Positions 11,721 to 58,065 of a stretch of 64,000 nt of DNA are shown here, piece by piece. The DNA is from an uncultured delta proteobacterium (GTDB lineage Bacteria > Desulfobacterota > Desulfovibrionia > Desulfovibrionales > Desulfovibrionaceae). The stretch lies in contig LT599018.1 of the NCBI GenBank assembly GCA_900079685.1, positions 2,577,335 to 2,641,334 of the forward strand, in the 5' to 3' direction. The position numbers and the translations under genes are program-made. The notes beneath the pieces are model-generated. The model was not told the DNA's origin, searched no databases, and worked only from the letters and a program-made list of their open reading frames with translations. Position 1 is the first letter of the stretch. Each line of letters starts with the position of its first letter.

Positions 11721-12488
11721 CTACTCTTCGAACCAGACCCGCGCCTCGGCGACCATTTTTTCCAGCTCGTCCGGACCGGCGGTTTGCAGCGTCGCGGCGA
11801 GTTCCTTGAGGATGCCGGGGAACAGGGGGTTGGCGGCGCTGAATTCGCCGAACATGGCCGCGCCGCTTGTGAGCTCGCTTCTGGCCGCTTCCAGAAAGCG
11901 CAGGAACGAGGGCGTGACGTAGGGGGCAAGGTTTTCGTGCCTGGCTGCGGCGGAAAAATACGCCGCCGACAAGGCGAAATGCAGGGATTGGGTTATGCCG
12001 ACCGCGCTGTCGTGCTCCGCCGCCGTTGCCGTAAAGGGAACGCAGCCGATTTCGCGGAACAGGGAGGCAACGCGGTCCATGGCCTCGTCCGTGGCGTTTT
12101 TGCCGCGCACCAGGGCTACTTTCCCGCCCGTCTGCCCGTTTTCCGGGCCGAAAAGCGGGTGGGTCCCGACGACGGGGCCGTCAAACCGCTCCTCCATCCA
12201 GCGCATGGGGTTGATTTTCACGGAGCACACGTCCGAGAGGATCTGCCCCTCCCTCAGGTAGGGGCGTATGCGGTCGAGGGTTTCCGGCATGGCGGGCGCG
12301 GGAACGCAGAGCAGAACCACGTCCCCCAGGGGGATGCCGTTGGCGAGATCCCCGTCCCGGAAGGCCGCGCGGCCGGAACCGTCGCGGGTTCTGTTCACAA
12401 CGTGCACGGGGCGGCGTTTTCCCCAGGCCTCATGGAACATGGCGCCCATGCGGCCCCGCGTTCCGACAAGTGTAACGGAAAAATTCAT
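11721..12488 (-). CDS. tyrA: Prephenate dehydrogenase
   Basis: 255 aa; oxidatively decarboxylates prephenate to 4-hydroxyphenylpyruvate for tyrosine. Rossmann loop VGTRGRMG at residues 8-15 replaces the canonical GxGxxG. SDVCSVK and GTHPLFGPENG are the conserved family blocks. It is shorter than two-domain TyrA proteins: no chorismate mutase and no C-terminal ACT domain. Its ATG overlaps the aroA stop by four bases, and it is the last gene of the aromatic operon. Confidence 0.9.
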   Translation of the reverse strand: MNFSVTLVGTRGRMGAMFHEAWGKRRPVHVVNRTRDGSGRAAFRDGDLANGIPLGDVVLLCVPAPAMPETLDRIRPYLREGQILSDVCSVKINPMRWMEERFDGPVVGTHPLFGPENGQTGGKVALVRGKNATDEAMDRVASLFREIGCVPFTATAAEHDSAVGITQSLHFALSAAYFSAAARHENLAPYVTPSFLRFLEAARSELTSGAAMFGEFSAANPLFPGILKELAATLQTAGPDELEKMVAEARVWFEE

Positions 12489-13849
12489 AAATCCTCTGTG
12501 ATGCGCGAATCGGGATGGATCGTCCGCCAGGCCTGCCAGAACGAGGGGAACGATTTGCTCACGCAGCCCGGGTCGTCCAGCATGATCCTATTGTTCACGA
12601 GCTCGAACAGCGCGAGGCTCATGGCCATGCGGTGATCGTTGTGGGCGGAGAATTGGAGCGTCTCCCCGGAGACCGCGGGCGGGGGAGTGATGACCATGGC
12701 ATCGCCGGAGATGGTGATCCGGCAGCCTGTTTTGGCCAGTTCCGCGGTGGGCGCCTGGATGCGGTCGCTTTCCTTGACCCGCAAAGAATCCACTCCCCTG
12801 AGGGTCGTCTGCCCCTCGGCCAGGCAGGCCAGAACCGCGACCGTGGGAACGAGGTCCGGGCAGTGGCTCATGTCGCGCTTGATGCCGCGCAAAGGGCCGG
12901 GGCTGACGGTAACCGCGTTGCCTTTCCATCTGACGGTCGCGCCCATGGCTTCGAGGATGTCGAGGATGGCCCTGTCGCCCTGGATGGAAGCGCGGCGCAG
13001 GTTGGTGACCGTGACCGGGTTCGGCCCGATGGCGCCGGCGGCCAGCAGGTAGGAGGCGCCGCTGTAGTCGCCTTCCACCGCGGCGGTGCTGCCGGTCAAG
13101 GGGCGGTAAGTTCCCCGGCGGATGCTGAAACGGACCGCGCCCGGATAGACGGTTTGCATTTCCCGCCAGTCTGTTTCCACCCATTCCCCGTTTTGGAGGG
13201 TCGCGACGGAAACGCGGCAGCCGGAGTCTTCCATCGTCTGCAACGTCAGGCCGACGTAAGGCCAGGACGCCACCCGCTCCCCGGCGAGGGCGAGGCGCAG
13301 GCCGTTTTCCGCCAGGGGGCCCGCCAGCAGAAGGCCGGACAGGAACTGGCTGGAAATTTCGGTCCGGACCGGCAACCAGGAATCTTCCATCTGAAAAAGT
13401 CCGCGCGCGGTAAGCGTCAGGGGAAGGAAGCCCGGCTCCTTCTGGAAGCGGATTGCCGCGCCGAGGATGGCGAGCGTTTCCAGGAGTTCGGCCATGGGCC
13501 GCTCCTCAAGGCGCGGCGCGCCGTGAATGGCGAAGGAGCCGTTGCCCGCCGCCAACAGCGCCGTGAGGAGCCTGCACGATGTGCCGGATTCCCCCATGAA
13601 GCACGAAACCGGTTTTTCGCGCCCGCCGTGGGGAGGGCCGTCCATGCCGGCGACCGTGTACGCGCCCGGCCCGGTTCTGTCTATGACGACGCCGACCCCC
13701 CGCAGCACCTCGATGGTCCGCGCGATGTCATCGCTTTCCAGCACATGGGAAAGACGCGACGTCCCTCTGGCAAGGGACGCCGTGATCAGTTTCCTGTGTG
13801 AAAAGGACTTGGACGGCGGCGCGGCCACCGTGATGGGCATTTTCCTCAT
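12485..13849 (-). CDS. aroA: 3-phosphoshikimate 1-carboxyvinyltransferase (EPSP synthase)
   Basis: 454 aa; joins PEP to shikimate-3-phosphate. Visible are the N-terminal PPSKSFSHRKLI substrate loop, GESGTSCRLLTALLA in the place of the GNAGTAxR motif (Glu-Ser for Asn-Ala), a RVKESDR motif and NDHRMAMS near the C-terminus. The changes in the GNAGT loop are typical of diverged class II-like enzymes. It overlaps pheA and tyrA by four bases each, giving translational coupling. Confidence 0.93.
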   Translation of the reverse strand: MRKMPITVAAPPSKSFSHRKLITASLARGTSRLSHVLESDDIARTIEVLRGVGVVIDRTGPGAYTVAGMDGPPHGGREKPVSCFMGESGTSCRLLTALLAAGNGSFAIHGAPRLEERPMAELLETLAILGAAIRFQKEPGFLPLTLTARGLFQMEDSWLPVRTEISSQFLSGLLLAGPLAENGLRLALAGERVASWPYVGLTLQTMEDSGCRVSVATLQNGEWVETDWREMQTVYPGAVRFSIRRGTYRPLTGSTAAVEGDYSGASYLLAAGAIGPNPVTVTNLRRASIQGDRAILDILEAMGATVRWKGNAVTVSPGPLRGIKRDMSHCPDLVPTVAVLACLAEGQTTLRGVDSLRVKESDRIQAPTAELAKTGCRITISGDAMVITPPPAVSGETLQFSAHNDHRMAMSLALFELVNNRIMLDDPGCVSKSFPSFWQAWRTIHPDSRITEDL

Positions 13850-15021
13850 GCACCGGAACCTTTCTGCATATATCTCCCGGCGGGGTACGCGCCGAGGATG
13901 CGGAAACTATGGCAGTGTTCGCGGACGATATCAAGTAGGGGGGCATGCTTTGTATCGGTCAGGTCGCAGGAGACGTCGCAAAAGAAGATGTACTTCCAGC
14001 GTTCCAGGTGCATGGGGCGCGATTCGAGCTTGTTCATGTTGACGCCCGCCGCCGCGAAGCACTGCAGCACGTTCGCCAGCGCGCCGGGTTTGTCCGCCAG
14101 GGTGAAGAGAACCGAGGTCTTGACCGCGCCGTCTTCCCCGCTTCCGGCTTGGCCGCTTGCCGGGGCCGGGGCGGGCTCGGGGCCGATGCACACGAAGCGG
14201 GTCCAGTTGTCGCTGGTGTCCTCGATGCTCCGGGCAAGCACGGCGAGGCCCAGGCGCGGGGCAAGGCTGCCGTGCCCCACTGCCGCCGCGTTCCGTTCGG
14301 CGAGCACTTTATGGGCGGCGGCCGCCGTGCTGTCCACGGAAATCAGTTCGGCTTGGGGCAGATTGGCGCGCAGCCACCCGGCGCACTGGCCCAGGGCCTG
14401 CGGGTGGGAGTACACGGTTTTGATACCGGCAAGGGCCGCCTCGCGGGACATCAGACTGTGGCTGATGCGGCTGAACCATTCGGCCTGGATGTGCACGGCG
14501 TGGGCCGCGAAAAGGTCGATGCTCTGCACGATGGTGCCGTGCAGGGAGTTTTCCAGCGGGATAACGCCCAGTCCGCAATCGCGGTTTTCCACGGCCTTGA
14601 AAATGTCGTCAAACCGGGGCATGGCCCAAAAATCCATGGAGTTGCCGAGAAATTCCGTGGCGGCCATGTGGGAGAAGGTGCCCTCCGGCCCCAGAAACGC
14701 CACTTTAAGCGGGTTTTGCAGCGCGCGGGAAGAGGAAAGTATCTCGCGGTAAATAGTCCGCAAATGCGTGCTCGGCAGGGGGCCGCTGTTTTTTTCCAGC
14801 AGCGTTTCCATGAGCAGTTCCTCGCGTTCCGGGCGGAACACGGGGCTGCCCTGTTCGCGTTTTACGGCTCCCGCCGCGAGGCTGGCCGAGGCCCTGCGGT
14901 TGAGCAGTTCCAGAAGGGCGTTGTCAATGGCGTCTATTTCGCGGCGCAGGCCTTCCAGGCCGGACTGCTCGCGGCGGTCGGCGGAAGGAGGCGCCGCCTC
15001 CGTATGGGGTGTGGTATGCAT
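13846..15021 (-). CDS. pheA: Bifunctional chorismate mutase / prephenate dehydratase
   Basis: 391 aa P-protein that makes phenylpyruvate from chorismate. An AroQ-type mutase helix bundle lies at about 22-105 (GLRREIDAIDNALLELLNRR), then the dehydratase from 112 with GPEGTFSHMAA and the catalytic Thr motif NWTRF near 275. A C-terminal ACT domain carries the phenylalanine-binding KLESRP motif, so allosteric inhibition by phenylalanine is expected. It starts one base after the aroB' stop and overlaps aroA by four bases. Confidence 0.95.
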   Translation of the reverse strand: MHTTPHTEAAPPSADRREQSGLEGLRREIDAIDNALLELLNRRASASLAAGAVKREQGSPVFRPEREELLMETLLEKNSGPLPSTHLRTIYREILSSSRALQNPLKVAFLGPEGTFSHMAATEFLGNSMDFWAMPRFDDIFKAVENRDCGLGVIPLENSLHGTIVQSIDLFAAHAVHIQAEWFSRISHSLMSREAALAGIKTVYSHPQALGQCAGWLRANLPQAELISVDSTAAAAHKVLAERNAAAVGHGSLAPRLGLAVLARSIEDTSDNWTRFVCIGPEPAPAPASGQAGSGEDGAVKTSVLFTLADKPGALANVLQCFAAAGVNMNKLESRPMHLERWKYIFFCDVSCDLTDTKHAPLLDIVREHCHSFRILGAYPAGRYMQKGSGA

Positions 15022-15022
15022 G

Positions 15023-16033
15023 TCATTCCTCGGTTATGTCTTCGGTGATCCGGATGCCGAAATGCCTGCCCGCTGTGTCCTTGCGGCACAAGACCTTGTC
15101 GCCTTTTGCCAGGGAAACCACGCTCACGGGGTCGCCGCCGGGCCTGACAAGGTTTATGGTTTCCGCGTTCTGCAGGAAAATCGCGCCTTCCGTCCCGCCG
15201 TCAATCGTCGCTTTTATGAGCAGCATGGGCCGCTTTTCCACCTTGACCCTGCCGATGACCGCTGTTTCGGCCTTTCCGGCGTGGTCCACGATCAGCACGT
15301 CGTCCCCGGCCCGCAGCTCTTCCAGGTAGCGGGTCTTGTCGCCGGGCATGAGCGCGTAGGCGTGCACCGCCCCGGCATTCACCCGGAAGGGGCGCGGCGC
15401 CACGTAGTCGTTATGCTGGGTCTCTGCATTGACGAGAAAGGTGAAAGCCGCGGAATTGCCCACCAGCATGCCCTGGCCCGGGGAAAACCGGGAGAGGGTA
15501 TCCACGCAGACCCTGTGCCCCATGCCAACGGGCGTGACTTCCGTTATGACGGCTTCGCACAGGGACAGGGTTTCGTCCGCCAGGTTCAGGGCGGCGGCGA
15601 TGGCGCTGATCCCGGAAAGGGATTCTTTCGTCACCACCACGGCGTCCACGCCTTTTTCCAGGATGCCGGAGGCGAGCTTCGCTTCCGCCGCGCTCGTGAC
15701 CTCAAGGGCCAGGGTGGCGGCAAGGTCGCTTTTTTGGGCCCGGGCGCTGCTTTGGGCATGGGCCAGCAGATTTTCCACCGGGATGATTTCCCAGCCCTTG
15801 CGGAGCACGACGAGCGGGGCGGTTTTCATGGCTTCCAGCGCCTTGTGTTCGTCTTCCGCTCCGTTAAGGGCGACGAACACGGCCTCGGAACCGGAAAACA
15901 CGTCGCAGCGGGCGAGCGAGGCGGCGGTGGCCACGTGCTCCGCCGGGACGATGAGCCCGGTCGCGCCCCCTTCCAGGGCCAGGGTGACGTCTTCCGCCGC
16001 GTACGGGATGGATGTGAAGTAGAGCGCGCGCAT
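15023..16033 (-). CDS. aroB': 3-dehydroquinate synthase II (archaeal-type AroB')
   Basis: 336 aa from the ATG at 16033 with GAAGGAAT upstream. It catalyses the NAD-dependent oxidative deamination and cyclisation of ADTH to 3-dehydroquinate, the alternative entry to the shikimate pathway used by methanogens and some Deltaproteobacteria. The family pattern is clear: an N-terminal VTLALEGGATGLIVP, VVTKE, GMGHRVCVDTLS and RYLEELRAGD. It is one base downstream of the ADTH synthase gene, its functional partner. Confidence 0.92.
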   Translation of the reverse strand: MRALYFTSIPYAAEDVTLALEGGATGLIVPAEHVATAASLARCDVFSGSEAVFVALNGAEDEHKALEAMKTAPLVVLRKGWEIIPVENLLAHAQSSARAQKSDLAATLALEVTSAAEAKLASGILEKGVDAVVVTKESLSGISAIAAALNLADETLSLCEAVITEVTPVGMGHRVCVDTLSRFSPGQGMLVGNSAAFTFLVNAETQHNDYVAPRPFRVNAGAVHAYALMPGDKTRYLEELRAGDDVLIVDHAGKAETAVIGRVKVEKRPMLLIKATIDGGTEGAIFLQNAETINLVRPGGDPVSVVSLAKGDKVLCRKDTAGRHFGIRITEDITEE

Positions 16034-16034
16034 C

Positions 16035-16835
16035 TTATTCCTTCCCCAGGACTTCCATGGCCTGGTCAACGCTCCAGCCGGCATGCACGATGCCGGAAAG
16101 GGCCTGCACCATCAGGCGGGGCCTGGGATGCTGGAACACGTTGCGGCCTATGGAAATGCCCTTTGCCCCGGCTTTCATGGCGTCGCTGACCATCTGCACG
16201 AAGCCCCTGTTGGACTCGTGCTTGGGGCCGCCCGCGATGAGCACCGGGATGCAGCAGCCTTCCACCACCCGGTTGAAGGAATCCATGTCCCCGGTGTAGG
16301 GCACCTTGACCATGTCCGCGCCCAGTTCCGCCGCCACGCGCGCGCAGTGTGCCACAACCTCGGGCCCGAACGAATTCGGGATCTTCGGCCCCCGCCCGTA
16401 CATCATGACCAGGAGCGGCATGCCCCAGTCTTCCGCGATGCCCGCGATGCGGCCGAGGTCTTCGAGCATGCGCGCTTCCGAGGGATCGCCGAGGTTCACG
16501 TGCATGGAAACGCCGTCCGCGCCGAGCTTGATGGCGTCTTCAACCGTGGCGGTAAGAATCTTGGCGTTGGGATGGGGAGAAAGATCCGTGGAGGAGGAGA
16601 GGTGGAGGATAAGGCCGACGTCGCGCCCGCCCTTGCGGTGGCCGCAGCGGGCCAGGCCCTTGTGGCCGAGCACGGCGTCCGCGCCGCCTTCGGCCACTTC
16701 GCCCACAGCCCGGCGCATGTCCTCCAGCCCTTCAAGGGGCCCGACGGAAACGCCGTGGTCCATGGGCACGATGATGCAGTTCCCGGTCGCCCGGTTCATG
16801 AGCCGTTCCATCCGAATCGCTTTGCCGATATGCAT
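16035..16835 (-). CDS. aroA': 2-amino-3,7-dideoxy-D-threo-hept-6-ulosonate (ADTH) synthase
   Basis: 266 aa class I aldolase-fold enzyme that condenses an aspartate semialdehyde-derived unit with a 6-deoxy-5-ketofructose phosphate to start the alternative shikimate route. Start at 16835 ([13 protein letters not shown]). Conserved parts are [28 protein letters not shown] with the probable Schiff-base lysine, and AGGPK. First gene of the operon and preceded by the attenuator described below. Confidence 0.92.
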
Positions 16836-16919: not shown

Positions 16920-16957
16920 AAAAAAACAGGGCCGCCGGCATGATGCCTGCGGCCCTG
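16920..16957 (-). terminator. Attenuator terminator of the aromatic operon
   Basis: On the minus strand CAGGGCCGCAGGC, loop AUCAU, GCCGGCGGCCCUG (13-bp stem with one internal mismatch), then seven U. It lies between the leader peptide stop and the first gene (start at 16835), so readthrough must be regulated. Confidence 0.85.
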
Positions 16958-16978
16958 GGGTTGCGCTATTGCATGAAT

Positions 16979-17089
16979 CTATGCCGCACATCCCCTCCCG
17001 CAGGCGGTAGAAAAGCCAAAAAAGTAGAAGCCGTAAAAAAATACGGATTCACTCGGATAGCTATACCGGGCGGCGGTGATGTGATGCAT
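16979..17089 (-). CDS. Phe/Tyr-rich leader peptide of the aromatic operon
   Basis: 36-codon ORF starting at the ATG at 17089, with AGGA seven bases upstream. The middle reads [20 protein letters not shown]: five Phe plus two Tyr within ten residues ([10 protein letters not shown]), and two more Tyr just before. The stop is 21 bases before the terminator stem. Its codons for ACC GCC TGC GG provide the sequence GCCTGCGG (16998-17005), which is exactly complementary to CCGCAGGC (16945-16952) in the terminator's first arm. This is the arrangement of pheA/trp-type attenuators. It is probably regulatory and not a stable protein. Confidence 0.85.
16998..17005 (-). promoter_or_regulatory. Antiterminator arm of the attenuator
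   Basis: GCCUGCGG in the leader mRNA, just downstream of the Phe/Tyr codons, can pair over all eight bases with CCGCAGGC at 16952-16945. A ribosome stalled at the Phe run leaves this arm free and prevents the terminator; a ribosome reaching the stop codon covers it. Confidence 0.8.
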
Positions 17090-17125
17090 GGAACAATCCT
17101 TACCGGCGTAATTGCCGTGCAGACG

Positions 17126-17154
17126 AGTTAATAAAGAAAGCAAAACGGTGTCAA
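17126..17154 (-). promoter_or_regulatory. Promoter of the aromatic operon leader
   Basis: Consensus -35 TTGACA at 17154-17149, followed by TATTAA (15-base spacer) or TTAACT (17-base spacer). It lies about 40 bases upstream of the leader peptide ATG. The -35 box is perfect; the -10 choice is uncertain. Confidence 0.7.
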
Positions 17155-17388: not shown

Positions 17389-17982
17389 ATGGCTACCAGC
17401 AGAAGTCCCCGTTTCAAATTGTGCCGCCGCCTCGGCGTCAACGTTTCCGGCCACCCCAAGGCCATGAACCGCACCCTTAAAGCCAAGGGCGCCCGCGGCC
17501 AGAAGAAAATGTCGGACTACGGTCTGCAACTTCTGGAAAAGCAGAAAATCAAAGCCTATTACGGCGTGCTCGAACGCCAGTTCGTGCGCTACTACGAAAA
17601 CGCCGCCAAAAGCTCGGACGTTACCGGCCACGCGCTGCTTAAAGCGCTTGAATGCCGCCTGGACAACATCGTGTACCGCCTCGGCATGGCCCGCTCCATC
17701 CGCCAGGCCCGCCAGCTTGTCAACCACGGCCACATCCAGGTCAACGGCAAGAAGGTGGATATCCCCTCCTACGGCCTCAAGGCCGGGGACATGATCCAGG
17801 TGCGCGAAAAATCCCGCAAGAATCCGCTGATTCTGGAAAACTTCCAGGGTTCCGCCGGTATTGGCGTGTCCTATGTGGAAAAGACCGAGGAACTGGGCGG
17901 CAAGCTGCTGCGCATTCCTTCCCGCGATGAAATCCCGGTGGACGTGAACGAAATTCTGGTCATCGAATTGTACTCCAAGTAA
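17389..17982 (+). CDS. rpsD: 30S ribosomal protein S4
   Basis: 197 aa from the ATG at 17389 (AAAGGAG upstream). Primary 16S rRNA-binding protein that nucleates the small subunit. An N-terminal S4 domain is followed by the S4 RNA-binding motif around residues 88-150 ([20 protein letters not shown], then [11 protein letters not shown]). The N-terminus keeps one Cys only (KLCRRLG), so it is the zinc-free form. It stands alone with its own promoter and terminator instead of being in the alpha operon with rpoA. Confidence 0.93.
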
Positions 17983-36130: not shown

Positions 36131-36746
36131 GCCGTTCTCCATATGAAAATGGGGCGATAATAAAGGAATACACCGCCCCGGACGCAAATCCGGCGCGGAA
36201 AGGGACGTTCGTCCTCATGGCGGGCCGCGCGGCAAAGGCCCCGTGTCGGCGGTCCACTCCTGTCTGACTGTATGGAGCAGGTCTTCCGGCTTGCCGACCG
36301 CGTTTCCGTCTTCCCGGGGTGGTCCCCAGTGACTTTCGGGCCGTTGCTACGGTCCGGGAATGCGGCGGGTATCGGCTTACGGCGGCGGGTCCGCTCCCGC
36401 TTTTAACGGGATTCCCTATTAAGCCTGGTCAATGTCTAAGGCGCTCCATATGGCGCATACTGGCAGACGAAACGAGCCCCTGTCAATGATTGGCGGCTTC
36501 TCCAGAAGGGCTGGGGGACGGGCTTTTTAGCCGATCAGGGCCGGTAATACGTTGGAATAGCGGATAAATATTTTTATATTTTTGTGAATTTTTCTAGATA
36601 AAATATAGAAATCGTGAAAACACTAACGCACCGGGAAGCCCGGCTCGCGGGAAAAACGGCGTGGAGGCTTGCGTTTCGCTGCTGATGCCCATACTATTGC
36701 CCAGGTACTGTGTCTACAGCCATGGCTTTGCCATGACGGAGGTTTT
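36131..36746. other. Intergenic region between nrdD and the Tim44-domain gene
   Basis: 616 bp. The nrdD-proximal half carries the cobalamin riboswitch. The centre (36540-36620) is AT-rich with the imperfect palindrome TTTCTA-N9-TAGAAA at 36591-36611, a possible operator. No convincing NrdR box or further gene was seen. Confidence 0.55.
36270..36432 (-). ncRNA. Cobalamin (B12) riboswitch
   Basis: On the minus strand the sequence shows AATAGGGAATCCCGTTAAAA, GGGAGCGGACCCGCCGCCGTAA, the B12-box-like AAAGTCACTGGGG, then GGGAAGACGG and AAGCCGGAAGACCTGC, in the order of the RF00174 consensus. It lies about 140 bases upstream of nrdD in the same orientation. The box reads GTCACTG rather than the most common GCCACTG. 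Confidence 0.88.
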
Positions 36747-56234: not shown

Positions 56235-56519
56235 CAGTTGCCTCCTGAAAGGGCATCCTGAAAAAGTTCCCCCGGCAGGCCGTTCAGGTTCGGCTTTTCG
56301 GTGCGGTTAATTACTCCATACCTATCCGGGGAAATTTGTTTTTTCTCCCGGTCGAGCGGAACGTTCGCACAGTCCTTCGCGAAGTGAAGTATACTGTGCT
56401 ATGCTTTTGCCCTCCGCAAAGACCAGAGGCAGACACGTCCGCCATTCCTACGCCACAGGCATTCCCCAGAAGCCTCGCAGAGCGCGCTCAGTTTCCGGAG
56501 GAAACTGGTAAGTGCGCCC
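56235..56519. other. Gap between the cargo gene and integrase
   Basis: No gene seen. It includes a short hairpin CCCTCAC-CGTT-GTGAGGG (56517-56534) overlapping the integrase stop, without a U tail. Confidence 0.4.
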
Positions 56520-57988: not shown

Positions 57989-58065
57989 TGGGGCGAATGA
58001 TGGGGGTTGAACCCACGACCCCCTGGGCCACAACCAGGTGCTCTGCCAACTGAGCTACATCCGCC
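57989..58065 (-). tRNA. tRNA-His (anticodon GTG), integration target
   Basis: 77 nt, counting the extra 5' G that pairs with C73, and encoded CCA. Acceptor GCGGATG/CATTCGC, D arm GCTC/GAGC, anticodon loop TTGTGGC. The 3' end (57989-58004) is repeated near 48415. The gene is intact. Confidence 0.93.

Follow-up and report, generated by a model that had tools for sequence, protein, structure and literature searches.

Known leader-peptide attenuators

Ribosome-mediated attenuation is established for the trp and phe operons. In the enterobacterial attenuators of pheA (pheL) and trp (trpL), a short leader ORF with cognate codons lies ahead of the biosynthetic operon, an antiterminator segment overlaps this leader and an intrinsic terminator follows. 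A candidate attenuator ahead of an aromatic amino acid operon in a 64-kb stretch of DNA, here called the window, is alike in each of these respects. Unlike pheL and trpL, it carries mixed Phe and Tyr codons, with Trp codons too in relatives; it would control the entry to the archaeal-type aromatic route, and no conserved protecting hairpin was found in it. The leader matches none of the amino acid leaders of Rfam. The sensitivity of ribosome-mediated attenuation is treated in PMC1183508.

The closest described element is an entry in Table 7 of PMC1173090 (2005), which places a putative attenuator, drawn from an automatic database, before aroA'-aroB'-aroQ/pheA-aroF-tyrA-[trp] of Desulfovibrio vulgaris. 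This operon is of the same type, and the element is very probably orthologous to the one in the window. In the available portion of that paper it appears as a listing, without a leader peptide, codon analysis, distribution, isozyme leaders or a TyrA-tail element, and the word "leader" is absent. The initial annotation had stated that the leader was not recognised from the literature. This stands for the leader and its codons, of which no description was found, but not for the attenuator as such, given the Table 7 entry. Regulation in delta-proteobacteria is the subject of PMC545781, in which the terms aromatic, trp and leader do not occur; Desulfovibrio likewise does not appear in PMC2965389. 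In the full-text literature searched (most subscription papers and all preprints lie outside it), neither the leader nor the TyrA tail was found described, nor were the isozyme leaders or Tyr-only and three-aromatic leaders.

Operon and gene neighbourhood

The operon is encoded on the minus strand and begins with ADTH synthase (2-amino-3,7-dideoxy-D-threo-hept-6-ulosonate synthase; 16035-16835), which scores above the cut-off of TIGR01949 at 381 bits. It is followed by 3-dehydroquinate synthase II (15023-16033; PF01959, 335 bits, with the NCBIfam DHQS II models below their cut-offs) and by pheA, a chorismate mutase/prephenate dehydratase (13846-15021) of which the prephenate dehydratase passes the NCBIfam cut-off. 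The last two genes are aroA, encoding EPSP synthase (12485-13849; TIGR01356, 364 bits, passing the NCBIfam cut-off), and tyrA, encoding prephenate dehydrogenase (11721-12488; PF02153, 51.8 bits). TyrA passes the Pfam cut-off for PDH_N only, and the NCBIfam models fall below cut-off. The gene names proposed from the sequence alone were thus supported when checked against NCBIfam and Pfam.

The nearest upstream neighbour is, by sequence, an S4-type ribosomal protein gene with its ATG at 17389, transcribed divergently. Elsewhere on the minus strand are a Cobalamin riboswitch (36259-36463; RF00174, 86.7 bits) and an int-alpA RNA (56256-56332; RF02996). A tRNA is found at 57992-58064, and this last region is possibly an integrated element.

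Leader, antiterminator and terminator

The putative leader ORF (17089-16979, minus strand) comprises 36 codons and a TAG stop, is preceded by a Shine-Dalgarno AAGGA (17101-17097) and lies between the promoter and the first gene. At its centre, at 17041-17012, is the predicted regulatory cluster of ten Phe/Tyr codons; such clusters are conserved in relatives, and the amino acids are products of the operon, which contains both pheA and tyrA. Across the family, the leader Phe and Tyr codons favour TTT and TAT; the operon's own genes favour TTC and TAC.

Within the last leader codons lies the antiterminator segment GCCTGCGG (17005-16998), the perfect complement (8/8 bp) of CCGCAGGC (16952-16945) in the first arm of the terminator. 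The intrinsic terminator (16957-16920) begins after a gap of 21 nt from the leader stop and consists of a 13-bp stem, CAGGGCCGCAGGCATCATGCCGGCGGCCCTG (16957-16927, 9+4 bp), and a U7 run (16926-16920), which ends 84 nt before the ATG of ADTH synthase (16835). It is conserved in relatives ahead of the first structural gene. The ORF with its ribosome binding site and central ten-residue cluster, the fully complementary 8-base segment and the 13-bp terminator with seven U are therefore all present as the initial annotation described them.

The promoter is the one weak point among the leader elements. The annotated promoter was borne out at its -35 region, an exact TTGACA at 17154-17149; TTGAC is common in relatives: 131 of 139 have it no more than 120 nt ahead of the leader start, compared with 23 of 139 shuffles. 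The candidate -10 sequence TTAACT (17131-17126), at a spacing of 17 nt, is a weak match (3/6), and a promoter scan of the window called no promoter at the leader. The promoter/terminator scan missed both this promoter and the real terminator. Its terminator call was CCGTA-TTTTTT-TACGG inside the codon cluster, a candidate that was rejected, as it is present in near relatives and was not seen across the family.

On folding, the terminator reaches -25.7 kcal/mol. RNA that runs only from the antiterminator to the first terminator arm forms the 8-bp antiterminator (-35.1), and once the second arm is included the terminator wins, at -41.2 for the whole. Only one of the two structures can form at a time, and which one does depends on the segments free to pair when the first arm emerges. 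The complete leader folds more stably than each of 200 shuffles (z -3.9). A protecting 1:2 hairpin is part of the canonical trp layout but is not universal. A search for one upstream of the antiterminator gave a duplex score of 14.8, only slightly above the 12.8 of shuffled sequence, and identified no conserved helix; the trp arrangement of four segments was thus not recovered. In the single-strand fold, a 5' leader segment pairs with the last terminator arm; it was set aside, since by eye this segment is absent from the leader of the sister species.

Conservation across relatives

Under strict thresholds, ADTH synthase was detected in 266 of the 288 family genomes and, at the level of the order, in 321 of 348. 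Upstream regions were collected from 229 loci, 180 of them unique; at 146 of these 180 (139 distinct), a terminator and a leader ORF containing an aromatic run were found. These leaders come from a wider scan, which took the place of a first one whose tight limits had missed several; the score used to find them rewarded aromatic codons and pairing, and so leans towards the result. A fixed rule, devised after the first examples had been seen, called for at least five F/Y/W in ten codons and at least 8 bp of antiterminator pairing. It was passed by 131 of 171 real upstream regions and by none of 180 dinucleotide shuffles, so the leader elements are not due to chance. No leader was found at the remaining 34 of the 180 unique loci, which include some lone paralogues and second tandem copies of ADTH synthase; the latter would share the leader of the first copy.

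Further upstream regions differed in character. The third ADTH-synthase copy of one genus (five loci) has no leader and a common upstream TGTATTATG-like box, and a conserved CTTGATTTTTGGA...TTGGCTAGATCA-like block, again with no leader, lies upstream of ADTH synthase in a related family (four loci). Among archaeal and other distant ADTH-synthase loci, the apparent aromatic ORFs at three related methanogen-type loci had 5-bp pairing only and no convincing terminator, and were left uncounted.

The pairing of antiterminator and terminator shows compensatory changes, with U-A, C-G, A-U and G-C all occurring at one pair. For this comparison each segment was located by its own motif, in which the central base was unconstrained; this central pair is T-A in 65 cases, C-G in 39, T-G in 14, A-T in 4 and G-C in 1, with 5 mismatches. 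Among 41 distinct sequences, 90.7% of cells pair, against 34-49% in slid registers, although the alignment is anchored on motifs near the pairing and leans towards this result. Cells changed on both sides number 23 in the same 41 sequences, compared with 7.8 in shuffles (0 of 500 as high). The spacings are also conserved. From the start of the last aromatic codon to the antiterminator the median is 9 nt (5-95%: 6-12), from the antiterminator end to the ORF end 18 nt, and from the stop to the terminator 25 nt. These distances place the regulatory codons where a ribosome could free or mask the antiterminator.

Conservation of the ORF and of the antiterminator pairing was the initial annotation's own test of its proposal. 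Both hold throughout the order and, in modified form, extend to other families of the Desulfobacterota. At ADTH loci of other families across the phylum, an aromatic run followed by a terminator was found in 12 of 23 sampled. In several of those outside the order, two tandem hairpins follow the leader, and GGTCTGCCCAC at the leader end pairs with GTGGGCAGACC in the first; these pairings were read by eye, and the pairing calls of the script there concern other segments. The two tandem GCCGTGG/CCACGGC hairpins were recorded after six out-of-order leaders. As the antiterminator sequence differs outside the order, the logic is kept and the sequence is not.

These observations bear on the reading of the element as a chance ORF beside an ordinary terminator that ends transcription from upstream. 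In its favour, short ORFs occur often and the promoter is an imperfect match, but with the S4-type gene (ATG 17389) divergent, no same-strand upstream gene is seen that would need the terminator. The conservation of leader codons and pairing, the covariation and the tracking of operon content by the codons also speak against it, making such a coincidence highly improbable.

Codon content and operon content

The codons of the leader run follow the genes downstream. Where the aromatic operon continues into trpEGDCFBA, Trp occurs in the run of 22 of 23 leaders, as in FYFWYWFSH, and the sole exception comes from a fragmented assembly. Most lone ADTH-synthase paralogues occur in genomes where the main operon is present as well. 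Their leaders are mostly Phe-only (FFFFFSF) or Tyr-only (YYYYY), and the clear cases are without Trp. Their Phe-rich runs include MHNITARFFFFFSFIRNACGLGVR and similar sequences from several genera, and their Tyr runs include TVSFGPYYYYG and AYAYYYYY; some Tyr leaders pair weakly with their own terminator. The difference in Trp between linked operons and 15 clear lone paralogues gives a Fisher p of 1e-9 with relatives treated as independent, which they are not, so that p-values of this kind are only a guide. Four loci that the script classed as lone do contain Trp; contig ends truncate two of them, and the other two neighbour trp genes on the opposite strand.

Unlinked trp operons usually have a leader of their own with WW or WWW and a terminator. 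Eight such stand-alone leaders, of the forms FWWWR... and GWWWRIRLRGG..., resemble TyrA tails. The leader in the window has no Trp codon, and its genome gave no match to trpE or trpD, with trpB present; the organism is possibly a Trp auxotroph, or the genes may fall in a gap of the 95% complete assembly. Trp is found in the leader core in none of four genomes without trpD, as against most genomes with unlinked trpD, which is only suggestive of a loss of Trp codons along with trpD.

The proposal that the mixed codons could sense both end products fits this pattern, as leaders of one specificity stand ahead of single-purpose genes in related genomes. It needs correction in one respect: judged by codon content, the element is one member of a broader system, in which Trp codons are added where trp genes are linked. 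In E. coli, the DAHP synthase isozymes AroF, AroG and AroH are separate first-step enzymes tuned to Tyr, Phe and Trp. The lone paralogues appear similar to such amino-acid-specific first-step isozymes. The E. coli set relies on repressors and allostery; here ADTH synthase takes the place of these enzymes, and leader codons (Phe-only, Tyr-only or mixed) would provide the tuning.

The codon pattern also bears on two other mechanisms. A metabolite- or tRNA-binding riboswitch (T-box-like, or an aromatic-binding RNA) could use the terminator as its output with the ORF incidental, and terminator/antiterminator logic is common to riboswitches. However, no Rfam riboswitch or leader covariance model matched the leader, even at permissive E-values, and the conserved part is an aromatic codon run in one frame that tracks operon content, not an aptamer; a riboswitch is accordingly given very little credence. 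The peptide might instead act in trans, or on the ribosome as an arrest peptide, and not through codon supply. Leader peptides can act in trans, as PMC7298713 describes for peTrpL. Since the rest of the peptide differs from genus to genus and the F/Y/W identity of the run tracks the operon, this too is very unlikely.

A probable Trp sensor in the TyrA tail

The junctions between tyrA and trpE, which lie outside the window, were compared in relatives with linked trp genes. TyrA ends in WWW at 20 of 30 distinct aro-trp junctions, and a terminator follows tyrA at 19 of these 20, usually 24-43 nt past the stop, compared with 2 of the 10 junctions without WWW. At many junctions the terminator arm pairs with the codons that follow WWW or with the first bases beyond the stop, for example GAGAAGTGC/GCACTTCTC, GGGAGCGCG/CGCGCTCCC and TGGGGTGCGGC/GCCGCACCCCG; other pairings are weak or not significant. 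The WWW end of TyrA and the terminator before trpE probably form an internal Trp leader in these operons. TyrA unlinked to trp can end in WWW too, without a terminator, so the tail probably arose first and was used as a leader later.

Proposed mechanism and significance

The element in the window is, with high confidence, a ribosome-mediated transcription attenuator through which the supply of charged Phe- and Tyr-tRNA would set expression of the archaeal-type aromatic operon. This reading is based on the elements, their order, spacing, conservation, covariation and codon content; ribosome stalling, readthrough and the amino acids sensed would follow from them. The ribosome is predicted to translate the leader just behind RNA polymerase. 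With Phe and Tyr plentiful, it would pass the cluster and reach the stop, coming to lie over or against GCCUGCGG (17005-16998). With this segment masked, the terminator stem (16957-16927) would fold and transcription would end. Under a shortage of Phe or Tyr, the ribosome would stall in the cluster and leave GCCUGCGG free to pair with CCGCAGGC, and the polymerase would read on into the genes from ADTH synthase to tyrA. Judged by footprint size, a ribosome at the earlier cluster codons should leave the antiterminator free, and one at the stop should cover or abut it.

This is very probably a genuine, conserved leader-peptide attenuator, of known mechanism and unusual target, first hinted at by the 2005 listing. 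The codon-level evidence, the phylum-wide spread, the isozyme- and operon-matched codons and the probable TyrA-tail attenuator are new here. On comparative grounds, leader attenuators, each with codons matched to its own transcription unit, are likely to govern aromatic amino acid synthesis in the Desulfobacterota. The main operon would respond to Phe and Tyr (and Trp), the lone ADTH-synthase isozymes to Phe only or Tyr only, and the separate trp operons to Trp through Trp-rich leaders. In linked aro-trp operons the Trp sensor would be the C-terminal WWW of TyrA, doubling as the leader peptide of an internal attenuator before trpE.

Leader-peptide attenuation would thereby be extended to the archaeal-type aromatic entry across the sulfate reducers and other Desulfobacterota. 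The findings point to an isozyme system whose signal may be read directly from its codons; they also point to an internal attenuator in which the end of an enzyme gene would supply the sensor codons.
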